DNA from: a virus
Reading direction: 5' to 3' (one strand)
DNA length: 22,369 bases
IMG/VR virus record: IMGVR_UViG_3300045999_012725
Coordinates: 1 to 22,369 of that record
The translations under genes and the position numbers were made by a program. Below are positions 1,833 through 21,996 of this stretch, in pieces. Within the stretch, counting starts at the first letter, position 1, and the number at the start of each line of letters is the position of its first letter. A model generated the notes under the pieces. That model saw only the letters and a list, made by a program, of their open reading frames with translations, was not told the DNA's origin and did no database searches.

Positions 1833-4142
1833 GTGGCTAACAGGCGCATATCTGAGTTACCCGCCATTACTGCGGGAAATATTAATGATAGCGATCTGCT
1901 CACAATTGTTGATGTTGCAGAGGTTGATCCTGGTTTAAAAAATAAAAAACTTACGATCTCTACAACAAAAGAATACCTGAATGGCTATTATTTTCAACTA
2001 ACGGGTGGCACTATTGGTGGTTCTGTTGTAATCACCAATGACCTAACGGTTTCAGGTATTTTTAATCCGTCGACTATCCAGGTAAGCGGTACTGGTACTT
2101 TTGCACAACTTGTTGTAACAGGTAATGCAGAAGTCCGTAACACTTTAAGTGGCAATACAATTACGGGTTTACAGATTAACGGTTTAAACGTTAATGCAAC
2201 AACAGGTAATATCACAACTCTTACAGTTGGTTCGGAAACGGTAGGTACTGGTAACTTTACCCGCATTAGCGGCATCACGATTACTGGTACAACCGGACAA
2301 TTTCAGACGTTAACCGGACAAACTGTAAACAGCGCAACCGGTATTTTCTCAAGCCTTAGCGGTACCAACATCACCGGGGTCAATGGCGTATTCACGACCC
2401 AGGTGTCTGGTGCTGTTGTTACAGGAAGTGCTGGACGTTTTAGTAATGTCACTGGCATCAGCGGTGTTTTTACAACTCGTTTGTCTGGTGCAACGATTAC
2501 AGGTGATATAGTTCTTGGCGCTAATATCACAGGTGTAAGCGGCGTATTTACTACAAGGCTTTCTGGTTTAACGATTACTGGGGCGACTGGTTTATTTACT
2601 ACGTTAACCGGAGTTTCCGGTGTCTTTACTTCCCAGGTCTCTGGCACAACTATTACCGGTGCGACGGGAGCTTTCACAAACCTTACTGGTTCATTTGGTA
2701 CTTTTACAACTCAACTTTCAGGAACCTCAATCACGGGTACATCTGTTAATGCCACAGTAATCACTGGTGTTTCAGGTGTCTTTACAAACGCTGTATCTGG
2801 GGCAGTTGTCACAGGTGAGGTCGGTAGGTTTACGTCTGTTACCGGAACAACAGGTGTCTTTACTTCTCGTATTTCTGGTTTAACAATTACTGGCGTAACT
2901 GGTTTATTCCAGCGAATTGAAGCACTAACCGGTGTTTTTGTTGATACTATTTCAATTCCGACGATTAGTACGACGGGCAATATTGTTGCCGGTGGGAATT
3001 TAGTCATTAGTGGTAGCGGAGTCATTTCTTCTGGGTTTACGGTTAGCGGAACATTATCTGGTAGCACGGTCACAGGTGCAACCGGTGGATTTGGCATTCT
3101 TATTGGCAATGAGATTTACGGTCTAACCAGTATTTCTGGCGCAACCATTACGGGTGCATCTGGCTCCTTTACTCGTGTCACTGCTGTTAGTGGTGTTTTT
3201 ACCACTAACCTGAGCGGTGCAACAGTTACAGGCAATACCGTTAATGCAACAACTGGTAATTTTGTTACTGGTATTTTTAGTGTTGTATCGGGAACTGTTG
3301 TTACAGGCGACGCTGGACGTTTTACGGTAGTTACCGGAACAACAGGTGTCTTTACTTCTCAACTTTCTGGTGCTGTTGTAACTGGCGTCACTGGTGCTTT
3401 TTCTAATGTCAATGCAGTAAGCGGCACCTTTACAGATCGCGTTTCTGGTGCTGTTATTACAGGAGACGCAGGGCGTTTTAGTAACATTACTGGTATTTCT
3501 GGCGTCTTTACAACCAGTGTATCTGGAGCTACTTTCACCGGTGCTGCAGGTAGTTTTGGTACTGTTACGGGCGTTTCTGGTGTTTTTACGTCCCAACTCT
3601 CTGGTGCAACCATTACTGGCAATGCCGGTCTCTTTACTAGAATTACAGGTGTCAGTGGCTTATTTACTACGCAGCTTTCCGGACAAAATGTTGTTGGTGA
3701 AAACGCAACTTTTAACTACATTACTGGTAGTACTAGGGTTGAAGGTGGAACTGTTTCTGGGGCTATAGTAACTGGCAATACTGGTTTATTTGGAAATGTA
3801 ACTGCTGCTACTGGTAACTTTACGTCACGTGTTTCTGGTACATACATTACTGGAAACACCATTGAAGCGGTTACTGTTACTGCAACAACTGGTAATTTTA
3901 CAATTGCTAATTTTACTCAAACTACAACTGGAAACATCAGTGTAAGCGGTAGCGGCACCTTTGGTTCCGGTGTTTTAAGTGACGGTCCAATTGCTACTAA
4001 AATATTGTTTGAAAACAATCAAATTATTACAACAAGCTATACTATAACAACAGGAAGAAACGCAATGGCAGTAGGAGATATTACTCTTAATTCAGGAGTA
4101 GTGATTACAATTCCAAGTGGAAGTAGGTGGCTTATAGTTTAA
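1833..4142 (+). CDS. Repeat-rich tail fibre protein
   Basis: This 769-residue fibre protein probably forms a trimeric host-contact structure. The N-terminus (residues 1-50, RRISELPAITAGNINDSDLL and on through KNKKLTISTTKEYL) matches the attachment segment I recall from cyanophage tail fibres. Residues about 80-715 are built from degenerate repeats of roughly 26 residues, each with a SGVFTT-xx-SGATITG core followed by GxF and an NxTG turn, very rich in Gly, Thr, Ser and Val, as expected for a beta-helical shaft. The C-terminus (DITLNSGVVITIPSGSRWLI) is the short cap often seen at the end of such fibres. The start is a GTG without a clear ribosome-binding site, chosen because the ISELP motif follows at once. 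Antisense ORFs here are artefacts of the repetitive codons. Confidence 0.85.
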   Translation: MANRRISELPAITAGNINDSDLLTIVDVAEVDPGLKNKKLTISTTKEYLNGYYFQLTGGTIGGSVVITNDLTVSGIFNPSTIQVSGTGTFAQLVVTGNAEVRNTLSGNTITGLQINGLNVNATTGNITTLTVGSETVGTGNFTRISGITITGTTGQFQTLTGQTVNSATGIFSSLSGTNITGVNGVFTTQVSGAVVTGSAGRFSNVTGISGVFTTRLSGATITGDIVLGANITGVSGVFTTRLSGLTITGATGLFTTLTGVSGVFTSQVSGTTITGATGAFTNLTGSFGTFTTQLSGTSITGTSVNATVITGVSGVFTNAVSGAVVTGEVGRFTSVTGTTGVFTSRISGLTITGVTGLFQRIEALTGVFVDTISIPTISTTGNIVAGGNLVISGSGVISSGFTVSGTLSGSTVTGATGGFGILIGNEIYGLTSISGATITGASGSFTRVTAVSGVFTTNLSGATVTGNTVNATTGNFVTGIFSVVSGTVVTGDAGRFTVVTGTTGVFTSQLSGAVVTGVTGAFSNVNAVSGTFTDRVSGAVITGDAGRFSNITGISGVFTTSVSGATFTGAAGSFGTVTGVSGVFTSQLSGATITGNAGLFTRITGVSGLFTTQLSGQNVVGENATFNYITGSTRVEGGTVSGAIVTGNTGLFGNVTAATGNFTSRVSGTYITGNTIEAVTVTATTGNFTIANFTQTTTGNISVSGSGTFGSGVLSDGPIATKILFENNQIITTSYTITTGRNAMAVGDITLNSGVVITIPSGSRWLIV

Positions 4143-4186: not shown

Positions 4187-4732
4187 ATGAATTACGGAAC
4201 ACTTGCTGTTGATTACATTACTTATACATCTAACGGCAGTGGATCTACTGCGTATTTAAGTGGGTTTTTTACTGGAAGATTCCCTAGCGTTTCTACTACT
4301 GGTACGGTTTCTGGTACCACGGTAACTGGAAGCACAGGAAACTTTTTAACGCTTAATGCGGTCACAGGCATTTTTACCAGTTCTCAATTAACAGATCCAG
4401 CAATTATCGGTACAATTTCAGAAGATATCTATACTATTACTGACGGCGCTGCTTTTGAAGTGGATCCTGGAAATGGCAGTGTCCAATTAATAACCCTTGG
4501 GTCTAGTCGAACACCAAAAGCCACTAATTTTGCGGCAGGAGAAGCGGTTACATTAATGGTCAATGACGGCTCTGCTTATACGTTGACTTGGACTGATTCA
4601 ACTTGGGGAAGTGGTGGGGTTGTATGGACCGGCGGTTCTGCACCAACTCTTTCAACAAGTGGATATACAGTTTTGCAATTTTGGAAAGTAAGTGGTCAAG
4701 TTTATGGGGCAAATGTAGGAGCAGTAGCATGA
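4187..4732 (+). CDS. Fibre-like virion protein, 181 aa
   Basis: This 181-residue protein continues the fibre composition. Residues about 30-70 contain two copies of the SGTTVTGSTGNFLTL / VTGIFTSS repeat found in the 769-aa fibre. Residues about 75-181 form a different domain: ITDGAAFEVDPGNGSVQLIT, then GEAVTLMVNDGSAYTLTW and a C-terminal YTVLQFWKVSGQVYGA. That region matches the short beta-rich tip domain often found at the C-terminus of phage structural proteins in marine and freshwater viromes. An AAGGAA purine tract lies upstream but rather far from the ATG. The stop overlaps the next gene start (ATGA). It is likely a fibre tip or baseplate-associated protein; the exact place in the virion is unknown. 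Confidence 0.7.
   Translation: MNYGTLAVDYITYTSNGSGSTAYLSGFFTGRFPSVSTTGTVSGTTVTGSTGNFLTLNAVTGIFTSSQLTDPAIIGTISEDIYTITDGAAFEVDPGNGSVQLITLGSSRTPKATNFAAGEAVTLMVNDGSAYTLTWTDSTWGSGGVVWTGGSAPTLSTSGYTVLQFWKVSGQVYGANVGAVA
4717..4721 (+). promoter_or_regulatory. Ribosome-binding site AGGAG that sets the propeller gene start
   Basis: AGGAG lies 7 nt before the ATG at 4729 and inside the end of the upstream gene. It supports starting the propeller protein at MRIPLGLRAAAG rather than at upstream in-frame ATGs such as 4603, whose encoded residues are an out-of-frame copy of the previous gene. Confidence 0.65.
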
Positions 4733-6327
4733 GAATTCCTTTGGGGTTACGGGCGGCCGCAGGCAGTTCTTCAGGTGGTCCATGGAATATCGCATCTGCA
4801 GTTTATAACGGTTCTCCAATAAATTCTTACTATGTAGGAACACGAGACTCTAATTGTCAGGATGTTTTTTTTAAACCTGATGGCACAAAGATGTATATTC
4901 TTGGTAATGGAAACGATAATGTATATGAATACAATTTATCAACAGCATGGGATATCTCAACAGCTAGCTACTTACAGAGTTTTTCTGTAGCAGCACAAGA
5001 TAACACCCCTGCTGGTATTTCGTTTAAAGATGATGGTACCAAGATGTATATTGTCGGTAGCACCAATGACACCGTATATGAATACAATTTATCAACGGCT
5101 TGGAATATCTCAACCGCTAGCTACTTGCAAAGTTTTTCTGTAGCAGCACAAGATACCAATCCTGGCGGTCTTTTTTTTAAAACCGATGGCACCAAAATGT
5201 ATATTGTTGGCGTCGTCAACAGAATCGTATATGAATACAATTTATCAACAGCTTGGAATATCTCAACCGCTAGCTACTTGCAAAGTTTTTCTGTAGCAGC
5301 ACAAGCTGGCCCTCAGGGTATTTCGTTTAAAGATGATGGCACCAAGATGTATATTGTTGGTGCTGGAAGCGACAATGTATATGAATACAATTTATCAACG
5401 GCTTGGAATATCTCAACCGCTAGCTACTTACAGAGTTTTTCTGTCACATCGTATGAAACCACACCTAATGGAGTATTTTTTAAAGGTGATGGCACAAAGA
5501 TGTATATAATTGGCAGCAGTGCAAACGCTGTGTATCAATACGATTTATCAACAGCCTGGAACTTAGCTACTGCATCTTTTACAAATCCGACAACAAATTA
5601 TTTTTTTATTGGAACACAAGACACAATACCCAGTGATGTTTTTTTTAAACCAGATGGCACCAAAATGTATGTTGCTGGTAGTACAAACGACAATGTATAT
5701 GAATACAATTTATCAACGGCTTGGAATATCTCAACAGCTAGCTACTTACAAAGTTTTTCTGTAGTTGCACAGGAAAGTACAATTAACGGACTTTCTTTTA
5801 AGACAGACGGTACCAAGATGTATATTGTTGGTAGCATCAATGACACCGTATATGAATACAATTTATCAACAGCATGGAACGTTACAACAGCCAGCTACTT
5901 ACAGAGTTTTTCTGTAGCAGCACAAGACACACTTCCTGGCGGTCTTTTTTTTAAAACCGATGGCACCAAGATGTATATTGTCGGTAGCATTAATGACACC
6001 GTATATGAATACAATTTATCAACGGCATGGGATATCTCAACAGCTAGCTACTTACAAAGTTTCTCTGTAACCGCACAAGATAACACTCCTACTGGTATTT
6101 CGTTTAAAGATGATGGCACCAAGATGTATATTGTTGGTTTTACCACTGACACCGTATATGAATACAATTTATCAACGGCTTGGAACGTTACAACAGCTAG
6201 TTACTTGCAAAGTTTTTCTGTAGCAGCACAAGATACCGGTCCTATTGGCATCTCGTTTAAAGATGATGGTACTAAAATGTATATGATTGGCACCGTAAGA
6301 GATTCTGTATGGTCTTATGACCTCTAA
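4729..6327 (+). CDS. Ten-repeat beta-propeller virion protein
   Basis: This 532-residue protein consists almost wholly of ten copies of a 51-residue repeat. The core is a GISFKDDGTKMYIVG strand pair, then a DTVYEYNLSTAW strand pair, then DISTASYLQSFSVAAQ. DGTKMY occurs exactly ten times. The N-terminus begins part-way through a repeat (WNIASAVYNGS) and the C-terminus stops at SVWSYDL, the half the first repeat lacks, the circular arrangement that closes propellers. The fold could be one ten-bladed ring or two five-bladed ones. A short Gly/Ser-rich leader (AAAGSSSGG) precedes it. The gene is coupled to the upstream fibre-like gene by a 4-bp overlap and lies next to the tail chaperone, so receptor or glycan binding at the tail tip is the likely role. 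No enzymatic motif was seen. Confidence 0.75.
   Translation: MRIPLGLRAAAGSSSGGPWNIASAVYNGSPINSYYVGTRDSNCQDVFFKPDGTKMYILGNGNDNVYEYNLSTAWDISTASYLQSFSVAAQDNTPAGISFKDDGTKMYIVGSTNDTVYEYNLSTAWNISTASYLQSFSVAAQDTNPGGLFFKTDGTKMYIVGVVNRIVYEYNLSTAWNISTASYLQSFSVAAQAGPQGISFKDDGTKMYIVGAGSDNVYEYNLSTAWNISTASYLQSFSVTSYETTPNGVFFKGDGTKMYIIGSSANAVYQYDLSTAWNLATASFTNPTTNYFFIGTQDTIPSDVFFKPDGTKMYVAGSTNDNVYEYNLSTAWNISTASYLQSFSVVAQESTINGLSFKTDGTKMYIVGSINDTVYEYNLSTAWNVTTASYLQSFSVAAQDTLPGGLFFKTDGTKMYIVGSINDTVYEYNLSTAWDISTASYLQSFSVTAQDNTPTGISFKDDGTKMYIVGFTTDTVYEYNLSTAWNVTTASYLQSFSVAAQDTGPIGISFKDDGTKMYMIGTVRDSVWSYDL
4780..6327 (+). repeat. Ten tandem ~153-bp coding repeats
   Basis: The propeller repeats are also conserved as DNA: blocks such as TATATGAATACAATTTATCA and AGCTACTTACAGAGTTTTTC recur nearly unchanged, with variation concentrated between them. 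Such identity suggests recent duplication or ongoing recombination between units. The middle unit (around 5530-5640) is the most divergent. Confidence 0.85.
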
Positions 6328-16942: not shown

Positions 16943-17676
16943 TGTCTAAACCTATTGAGATGATTGGCACCATGGTGCTCAAGGGTGCTGATGACTTAAT
17001 AAATCAATTTGATTGTATTGATTACCCTGTTAAACGATACTTTATTCTCGACAATTCACAGGGAGACCCTGATGTTTTAAATGCAATCATTGGCATTAAA
17101 AATACACCTTCTAAATATGTAAATGAAATTAAAGTTGTTCACAACGTTACTAACGTAGGTTTTTCGGGATCTATCAATCAAATTATTAAGCAAAACACAG
17201 ACTGCCCCTACTGGTGCATCTTGTCAGTTGACTGGCACCCTAAGCCAGGACAGTTAAAGAAACTTGGTAAACGCCTGAAAGATCCGTTTGTTGGTATCTT
17301 ATGTGACGAAAGCCAAAACGGTTATTCGTCGATGGTATTTACGCCAGAACTTCTTTATGAAGTCGGCTACCTGGATGAAAATTTCTTCCCTGCTTATTAC
17401 GAAGACAACGACCATCGTTATCGCATGAAGTTGGCGGGGCTTGAATGGGAGTATTTACCTCTTCAATACACGCATCGCGTTAGTTCAACTCTCAAAAGTA
17501 GCGAAGAGTTTCAAAAGAAAAATCAAATGACGTTTGCTGAAAACTGTAGATATTACATTGAGAAATGGGGCGGCACCCCAACTCAAGAGAAGTACGAGAC
17601 GCCCTTTAATATGGACCTGCCTATCGACTATTGGCTCTATGATCCTGTACGTAGCGAACGGCAACAATGGACTTAA
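16942..17676 (+). CDS. GT2-family glycosyltransferase
   Basis: This 244-residue protein resembles inverting GT-A glycosyltransferases of family 2. VTNVGFSGSINQIIKQ (about 69-84) is the NxGFxxxxN nucleotide-sugar segment. LSVDWHP (about 94-100) stands where the DxD-like metal site lies (usually NNDxxP; here a single Asp). GYLDENFFPAYYEDNDHRYR (about 142-161) supplies the ED catalytic-base motif. There is no membrane segment. The start at 16942 is preferred over the GTG one codon earlier because of the TGATG junction. With the epimerase and dehydrase that follow, it probably attaches a modified sugar to a host or virion glycan. Confidence 0.8.
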   Translation: MSKPIEMIGTMVLKGADDLINQFDCIDYPVKRYFILDNSQGDPDVLNAIIGIKNTPSKYVNEIKVVHNVTNVGFSGSINQIIKQNTDCPYWCILSVDWHPKPGQLKKLGKRLKDPFVGILCDESQNGYSSMVFTPELLYEVGYLDENFFPAYYEDNDHRYRMKLAGLEWEYLPLQYTHRVSSTLKSSEEFQKKNQMTFAENCRYYIEKWGGTPTQEKYETPFNMDLPIDYWLYDPVRSERQQWT

Positions 17677-20972: not shown

Positions 20973-20980
20973 TGATATCC

Positions 20981-21074
20981 TGACATACGGAGCAATACCG
21001 CTCTGGAGCTAATAGTCGAACGCTCCTTCACCTTACGAAGTAGTGCTCAGCAACAGCTTGAGTGGGAAGGAAGT
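20981..21074 (+). ncRNA. Candidate structured RNA leader upstream of the 21103 gene
   Basis: This noncoding stretch can fold extensively: GAGC/GCTC (20990-20993 with 21000-21003), GGAGC/GCTCC (21005-21009 with 21022-21026), CCTTC/GAAGG (21025-21029 with 21066-21070) enclosing CTCAGC-AACA-GCTTGAG (21046-21062). It leads straight into a perfect hairpin with a T-run. It may be a small RNA with its own terminator, or a cis-acting leader or riboswitch-like attenuator for the gene at 21103. Some helices share bases, so alternative folds are possible. No known RNA family was recognised. Confidence 0.4.
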
Positions 21075-21122
21075 ATGATCCCGGTATACACCGGGATTTT
21101 TTGTGACTACTCTTGTTGCTAA
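21075..21122 (+). CDS. Possible 15-aa upstream ORF overlapping the 21103 start
   Basis: ATG at 21075 is preceded by a GGAAGGAAG purine tract and encodes MIPVYTGIFCDYSCC before a TAA at 21120. It runs through the hairpin and overlaps the GTG start of the next gene in another frame. It may be a leader peptide. If one T of the T6 run (21097-21102) is skipped, the frame would join the downstream gene. It is too short to be judged as protein. Confidence 0.25.
   Translation: MIPVYTGIFCDYSCC
21078..21102 (+). terminator. Rho-independent terminator-like hairpin with T6 run
   Basis: ATCCCGGT (21078-21085) and ACCGGGAT (21090-21097) form a perfect 8-bp stem with an ATAC loop, followed by TTTTTT. It would end transcription from the small-gene run, or act as an attenuator, because a GTG start codon begins on the base after the T-run. 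Confidence 0.75.
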
Positions 21123-21780
21123 CGTTCCTCCAGTCAAGGTTTGGGTACGACGTGAGTACCTGCGTGATTTGCGTGATGGTCATGGTGAGTACACACCTGG
21201 TTATTGGGTTACGTGCAAGTCATTGAGCGGTCGTGCTCTTTATTTTGAAACGTACTTGACAGAGTACGGCGCACTGTATGACAAGCTTCCCATCAGTGCG
21301 TTCCTTGCATGGAATCCCAACTATCCGGAAAAACCAGAAAGTCCAACACCAGATTTAGAGCTGACAGATCTGCAGTTCTGGAACGGGTTTGACACAGGGC
21401 TTACGGTCATTGAAAAGAATTTGATCTATAACATGGAGTTTCAGGTTATGACACGCAGTGCCGGTGTAATGACGGGCACATACTTATTTACGATTGACAA
21501 CTACCATCCACATAGAAACGAACCTGATTTTTACTTTGCGGAGTTTCCTGATGAGCACAAATCCCATAACATTGTGGCTTTGGACAACGGTCAAATTGGC
21601 GCTTATCCCAACAATCGGTGTCGCATGGTTGATCCATCACTAAGTAACCATGACCTTAAAACCCCAGACTTTAAAGTATCAACAAGATATTTTGATGTTG
21701 AACACGCCCCCAAGTGGGGTCGTCTTGGGGAATGTGATGATTATTTTTGGAAGACACCTAACGAAAAAGGTGTAGAATAA
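21103..21780 (+). CDS. Conserved phage hypothetical protein, 225 aa
   Basis: This 225-residue protein begins TTLVANVPPVKVWVRREYLR and continues with YFETYLTEYGALYDKLPISA, LQFWNGFDTGLTVIEKN, GTYLFTIDNYHP, EFPDEHKSHNIVALDNGQIG and AYPNNRCRMVDPSL. I recall close relatives in cyanophage and aquatic virus genomes, always without known function. It is soluble, with mixed alpha/beta and several conserved His/Asp residues (DNYHPHR, DEHKSHN) that could bind metal, though this is untested. The GTG start lies right behind a T-run and has no accessible ribosome-binding site, but related proteins as I remember them also begin at MTTLVANVPP, supporting it. Confidence 0.75.
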   Translation: MTTLVANVPPVKVWVRREYLRDLRDGHGEYTPGYWVTCKSLSGRALYFETYLTEYGALYDKLPISAFLAWNPNYPEKPESPTPDLELTDLQFWNGFDTGLTVIEKNLIYNMEFQVMTRSAGVMTGTYLFTIDNYHPHRNEPDFYFAEFPDEHKSHNIVALDNGQIGAYPNNRCRMVDPSLSNHDLKTPDFKVSTRYFDVEHAPKWGRLGECDDYFWKTPNEKGVE

Positions 21781-21899
21781 TTTGGTTCCCCCTCTCTTTT
21801 TGATGGGGCAGCAAGGGTGCAACAAGGAACGTTGCATTAAATAAAGGATCCCCTCAGCCGCATCGTAAATTATCGTAGGCGGACATCCTTGCCCTTTAT
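21781..21899 (+). ncRNA. Structured noncoding segment abutting the tRNA
   Basis: Several helices fit in this 119-nt gap. CCCC/GGGG (21789-21792 with 21805-21808) sits inside GTTCC/GGAAC (21785-21789 with 21826-21830). An alternative is TGCAAC/GTTGCA (21818-21823 with 21831-21836). Nearer the tRNA, ATAAAGG/CCTTTAT (21841-21847 with 21893-21899) encloses CCGC/GCGG (21858-21861 with 21879-21882), with AAGGAT/ATCCTT as a competing outer stem. The last helix ends on the base before the tRNA. It may be a processed leader, a small RNA or a regulatory fold; no family was recognised. Confidence 0.4.
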
Positions 21900-21973
21900 C
21901 GGGGATTAGCGCAGTTTGGTAGCGCAATTGCTTTGGGAGCAATGGGCCGCAGGTTCAAATCCTGCATCTCCGA
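21900..21973 (+). tRNA. tRNA-Pro (anticodon UGG)
   Basis: A complete 74-nt cloverleaf: acceptor CGGGGAT/ATCTCCG (one G-T pair), D stem GCGC/GCGC, anticodon stem ATTGC/GCAAT with loop TTTGGGA, variable GGGCC, and T arm GCAGG-TTCAAAT-CCTGC. The anticodon is TGG, and G37 is as usual for proline tRNAs. The discriminator is A and CCA is not encoded, so the host would add it. Phages often carry tRNAs to match their codon use, and a tRNA can also mark an integration site, though no integrase is seen. Confidence 0.93.
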
Positions 21974-21996
21974 TTATTCAAATTGATAATAAACGC

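Follow-up and report, generated by a model that had tools for sequence, protein, structure and literature searches.

When a terminator-like hairpin ends on the base before a start codon, two questions arise: what the structured region ahead of the hairpin is for, and how the gene behind it can be translated. This arrangement is found in an IMG/VR virus record of 22,369 bp, analysed here over its whole length (the window). Bases 21078-21085 (ATCCCGGT) are perfectly complementary to 21090-21097 (ACCGGGAT), giving an 8-bp hairpin; six T residues occupy 21097-21102, the first of them doubling as the stem-closing base, and the GTG start of a 225-aa gene follows on the next base, 21103. The preliminary description of the locus was accurate in these points, and also in describing the region as folded. 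The folding energy of the 128-nt stretch up to 21102 is -41.5 kcal/mol, against -30.4 +/- 3.5 kcal/mol for shuffled sequences (z -3.2), and 0 of 200 shuffles fold as well. A terminator-like pattern alone is unremarkable in the window, where six were found against 3.8 expected; what makes this one special is the conservation of the element to which it belongs. Two readings had been offered, an attenuator or riboswitch-like leader on the one hand, and a separate small RNA followed by a leaderless gene on the other. The comparison of relatives points to a standalone phage small RNA gene, whose RNA most likely acts in trans and whose terminator has a second use in cis, and we regard this reading as probable.

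To collect relatives, homologues of the 225-aa protein were fetched and the regions upstream of their genes were compared. The leader is common to some thirty of them, and in most of the others the upstream sequence is unrelated. Further copies came from scanning viral contigs for the leader pattern alone and from loci around the upstream 66-aa gene, and at least 62 non-redundant copies were collected in IMG/VR phage contigs. All copies used have the intrinsic terminator. A covariance model built from the element (R1) scores close copies at 114-152 bits and divergent copies at 58-103 bits, and each record searched in full contained one strong match. In the window it matches 20973-21102 (126 bits), and the element begins with the promoter -10 at 20973, slightly upstream of the 20981 given earlier. 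A remote candidate (L031), with a stem GCGGAC/GUCCGU around AGUCGA and a terminator about 40 nt upstream of an ATG, reached only 16 bits with R1 and was not counted. The features of the element are listed in Table 1.

Table 1. Features of the candidate small RNA gene and the gene behind it, in window coordinates.
Feature	Position	Strand	Basis
Extended -10 promoter TGATATCCT (TGnTAnnnT)	20973-20981	+	Signature in 61/61 core-selected copies with terminator
Small RNA, about 113 nt (predicted transcript)	20988-21102	+	Promoter, terminator and covariation
Hairpin SL1 (GGAGC...GCTCT)	20989-21004	+	GAGC/GCUC pairs invariant, 46 sequences
Hairpin SL2 (GGAGC...GCTCC)	21005-21026	+	Compensatory changes at all five pairs
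SL2 invariant loop core AATAGTCG	21011-21018	+	
Variable middle with small hairpins P3 and P4, purine-rich GGGAAGGAAG	21027-21073	+	Folds of 62 copies; less certain
Shine-Dalgarno (SD)-like AAGGA	21067-21071	+	Sequence; mechanism inferred from T4 genes 25 and 38
Mini-AUG entering the hairpin	21075-21077	+	Present in 21/23 gene-adjacent clusters
Intrinsic terminator (8-bp stem, 4-nt loop, T6)	21078-21102	+	Stem conserved, compensated changes, 46 sequences
225-aa gene, phrog_3704	21103-21780	+	N-terminus conserved in relatives

The constant core of the RNA consists of the hairpins SL1 and SL2 in tandem. In SL1, which comes first, GAGCA-N5-GCUC is invariant, and the closing pair is G-U, A-U or G-C among the copies, which is consistent with the + strand as the RNA. 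In SL2 it is the loop, AAUAGUCG, that is invariant, and the stem differs between copies: 12 different 5' strands occur, each paired at 5 or 6 of 6 positions, and all five of the pairs counted show compensatory changes. Pairing in the three main helices reaches 98.3% over 46 sequences, and double-change cells number 67 against 21.4 in shuffled alignments, the cells counting sequences and not independent events. The covariation score of the same sequences is 0.247 against 0.121 shuffled (equalled in 0 of 500), and slid controls stay at or below 0.125. In the variable middle, P3 covaries in part. SL2 is revealed only by the comparison of copies; it would escape a reader of the single window sequence, because the minimum-energy fold of the window puts a competing helix in its place. 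A conserved secondary structure with compensatory changes, as expected of a small RNA gene, is therefore found, and the covariance search among relatives suggested in the preliminary description returns the leader as both conserved and covarying.

A loop that stays invariant while its stem changes freely suggests specific recognition and not mere stability. This observation bears on the possibility that the RNA is only structural or related to processing, that is, a stable RNA of a tRNA region or a spacer that protects a transcript, with no base-pairing target. In several phages the RNA does lie near tRNA genes, and by description it is similar in this respect to RNAC and RNAD, phage-encoded stable RNAs of the T4 tRNA region whose role is unknown (PMC3014915). 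However, the invariant loop speaks for a recognised partner, and unlike RNAC and RNAD the cyanophage RNA, which many phages conserve, appears to have a promoter and a terminator of its own. We consider a purely structural role quite improbable.

The element was also sought beyond the collected loci. No family of Rfam 15 scored above its gathering score, in keeping with the earlier remark that the region belongs to no recognised RNA family; the best result of that search, anti-hemB (16 bits, E 0.38), is a chance match. In bacterial and archaeal genomes of 84,980 species, a strict pattern gave 0 matches and a relaxed pattern 71, against about 180 expected by chance by our own estimate, and the best model score among the latter was 19 bits, with no convincing copy. 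BLAST of the element against phage records found none, and a search of the phages S-EIV1 and DSL-LC03 gave no match. In the part of the literature that was covered, no description of the RNA was found. The existence of a conserved small RNA family is well supported by the copies compared, and the family is apparently undescribed, structured and phage-specific.

A small RNA gene is expected to have its own promoter and its own terminator. In copies picked by the SL1-SL2 pattern alone, TGnTAnnnT lies 5-9 nt upstream of the core in 61 of the 61 with a terminator, compared with a background of 0.6% of window positions. Eight other matches to the pattern have neither terminator nor TGnTAnnnT and look like chance. 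The five hallmark bases of the extended -10 are constant and the other four positions vary; this base constancy partly reflects how the copies were selected, which the count of 61 of 61 does not. The -35 region is not conserved among copies. Transcription would start near 20988, about 7 nt past the last T of the -10 and at the foot of SL1, and the predicted start and the terminator together give an RNA of about 113 nt. The signature in every such copy argues for a promoter belonging to the element, and the conserved hairpin with its T run for a terminator of its own.

Downstream of the terminator, the commonest gene is phrog_3704, which encodes the 225-aa protein, and most copies with an intact phrog_3704 gene have it directly downstream. 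Such proximity is what a cis-acting leader (attenuator, riboswitch or put-like antiterminator) gating polymerase into this gene would produce, and the promoter-proximal tandem hairpins resemble, by description, the put RNA of HK022, in which tandem hairpins stand just after the promoter. However, the RNA also persists in loci in which the 225-aa gene is missing, divergent or displaced. Another phrog_3704 member, 29% identical, can follow with its start at 0 or +4 nt; an endonuclease VII-like gene (L032) or a phrog_1679 gene (L250) can take its place; and in a further set of phages there is no immediate gene, and a -10-like box or tRNAs follow the terminator (L091, L115, L122, L203, L213, L221, L232, L238, L239, L243, L249, L261, L267, L272, L259 and L086). 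Since the downstream neighbour changes between phages, the RNA is not tied to the 225-aa gene, and the constant association with one gene or pathway that a riboswitch or attenuator would have is not seen.

The terminator arm tells the same way. Alternative partners of its 5' arm were examined in 51 copies and no conserved anti-terminator was found: the gain by alternative pairing is 0 to -7.7 kcal/mol in 50 of them and -10.6 kcal/mol in one, against -10.1 to -14.0 kcal/mol for the terminator itself. With a next gene that differs between phages and no conserved alternative partner for the terminator arm, the attenuator or riboswitch-like leader of the preliminary description is not supported, and we consider any cis-acting leader into phrog_3704 unlikely. 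Its other proposal, a separate small RNA, is strengthened by the extended -10 promoter, the terminator, the covarying hairpin and the persistence of the RNA without the downstream gene. The two parts of the element can also be separated, as each occurs without the other: in four loci (L042, L045, L058 and L059) the 225-aa gene is preceded by SD, AUG, hairpin and start as one piece, the RNA body being absent, and L057 retains this piece in degraded form.

How, then, is the gene behind the terminator translated? No room for a ribosome-binding site had been seen. In the window, AAGGA lies 31 nt upstream of the GTG, and the hairpin at 21077-21098 occupies 22 of these 31 nt, leaving 9 nt when it is folded out. 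The translation starts of T4 genes 25 and 38 are split in this manner, a hairpin shortening the gap between SD and start from 27 to 11 nt and from 22 to 5 nt, respectively (PMC3014915). The likeness lies in the hairpin that would bring the SD to a working distance, leaving about 5-11 nt, the spacing of a T4-type split start; unlike in T4, the hairpin here would also be the intrinsic terminator of a separate small RNA, and the start is read from sequence. By analogy, AAGGA brought near the GTG by the hairpin is the likely answer to the puzzle of the missing ribosome-binding site, and a leaderless gene is unlikely, because an SD-like motif comes to lie 9 nt from its start. The terminator thus probably serves as the start signal for translating the next gene as well, although part of the conservation of SD and hairpin could simply serve RNA structure or termination.

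A nearly leaderless mRNA would also result if the hairpin loop were the -10 box of a separate promoter. TATAAC or TATGAT is frequent in the loop, and copies without a gene have TATAAT boxes after the terminator; yet the commonest loop has C where the hexamer should end in T, the loop of the window is TATACA, neither a TG nor a -35 element stands upstream, and the conservation of SL1-SL2 would be left unexplained, which makes such a promoter extremely improbable.

Under the split start, a further detail of the hairpin may matter. Most relatives have an AUG running into the hairpin and, in frame with it, a stop (TAA, TGA or TAG) in the loop; in the window this mini-AUG is present and the in-frame loop stop is absent. 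By a hand tally, the mini-AUG is found in 21 of 23 gene-adjacent clusters against 2 of 10 others (Fisher p 1.3e-4, uncorrected for ancestry). Given this enrichment, it may aid translation by reinitiation and so help downstream initiation. In L250 (9517-9850) the mini-AUG frame runs stop-free through the terminator into the phrog_1679 gene (MIPVILGFFMWRLW...), and the terminator stem may therefore be coding there.

The standalone small RNA gene that we favour would work as follows. Host RNA polymerase would start at the extended -10 promoter and make an RNA of about 113 nt, composed of SL1, SL2 with its invariant loop and the variable middle, and transcription would stop at the intrinsic terminator. 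During infection this RNA most likely works in trans, using the SL2 loop to act on a host RNA or protein. In read-through transcripts, the terminator hairpin would shorten the distance between AAGGA and the GTG from 31 to about 9 nt, and initiation at the mini-AUG inside the hairpin would possibly assist the downstream start. A search of the fetched phage loci for a base-pairing target of the SL2 loop gave scattered matches only; one near window position 17624, in a 245-aa ORF and common to L086 and L105, falls within a conserved protein stretch (IDYW), is not enriched and was rejected.

Among the RNAs described from cyanophages, CfrI of S-PM2 is a non-coding RNA of about 225 nt that is antisense to the psbA region (PMC12197685); the present RNA is likewise encoded by a cyanophage but has no overlap with that region. 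The manA, wcaG, glnA and PhotoRC-II elements are structured RNAs also carried by cyanophages, and are candidate cis-regulatory 5' leaders with Rfam models (PMC2864571, PMC9964418), none of which matches the RNA described here. It is conceivable, and we advance it tentatively, that the family represents a new class of trans-acting cyanophage RNA with the invariant loop, its terminator being reused as a translation start by several unrelated genes.

Around the 225-aa gene lie, among others, genes for primase-like, 119-aa S-adenosylmethionine decarboxylase-like and glycosyltransferase-like proteins. The same is true of Synechococcus phage S-EIV1, with which the 225-aa gene shares 76% DNA identity. 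The phage family probably infects freshwater cyanobacteria, a host assignment based on phages of Synechococcus and Prochlorococcus, S-EIV1 among them, that have the 225-aa gene, and not on the contigs themselves. The 225-aa protein is named 'ferredoxin' in phrog_3704 and PurM or ferredoxin in cyanophage records; these names look unreliable, as a Pfam search of the protein gave no match. Elsewhere in the window, 1833-4142 and 4603-6327 encode two long proteins (769 and 574 aa) built of short degenerate repeats; judged by eye, they are probably virion proteins resembling fibres or adhesins. Another structured RNA candidate, unrelated to the first (AGGGTGCAAC...GTTGCA...AAGGAT...CCGC...GCGG...ATCCTTGCCCT), lies at 21813-21894, just 5' of a tRNA-Pro (21899-21974). 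It has 24 distinct copies in the fetched loci, often just before a tRNA, one of them in the Kyanoviridae phage DSL-LC03. By eye its stems appear compensatorily changed, some copies have a loop insertion, and Rfam gave no match at E <= 10. Downstream of this RNA in L130 and L135, a tRNA-Pro-like sequence has an anticodon arm seemingly interrupted or fused by about 60 extra bases.

Few phage small RNAs are known outside the model coliphages, and most of the named cyanophage RNAs in the literature searched are cis elements. Because dozens of phage contigs have kept the RNA, a phenotype may be measurable when it is lost or overexpressed. If the terminator indeed serves as a translation start, one hairpin would influence the amounts of both a small RNA and the protein encoded downstream.
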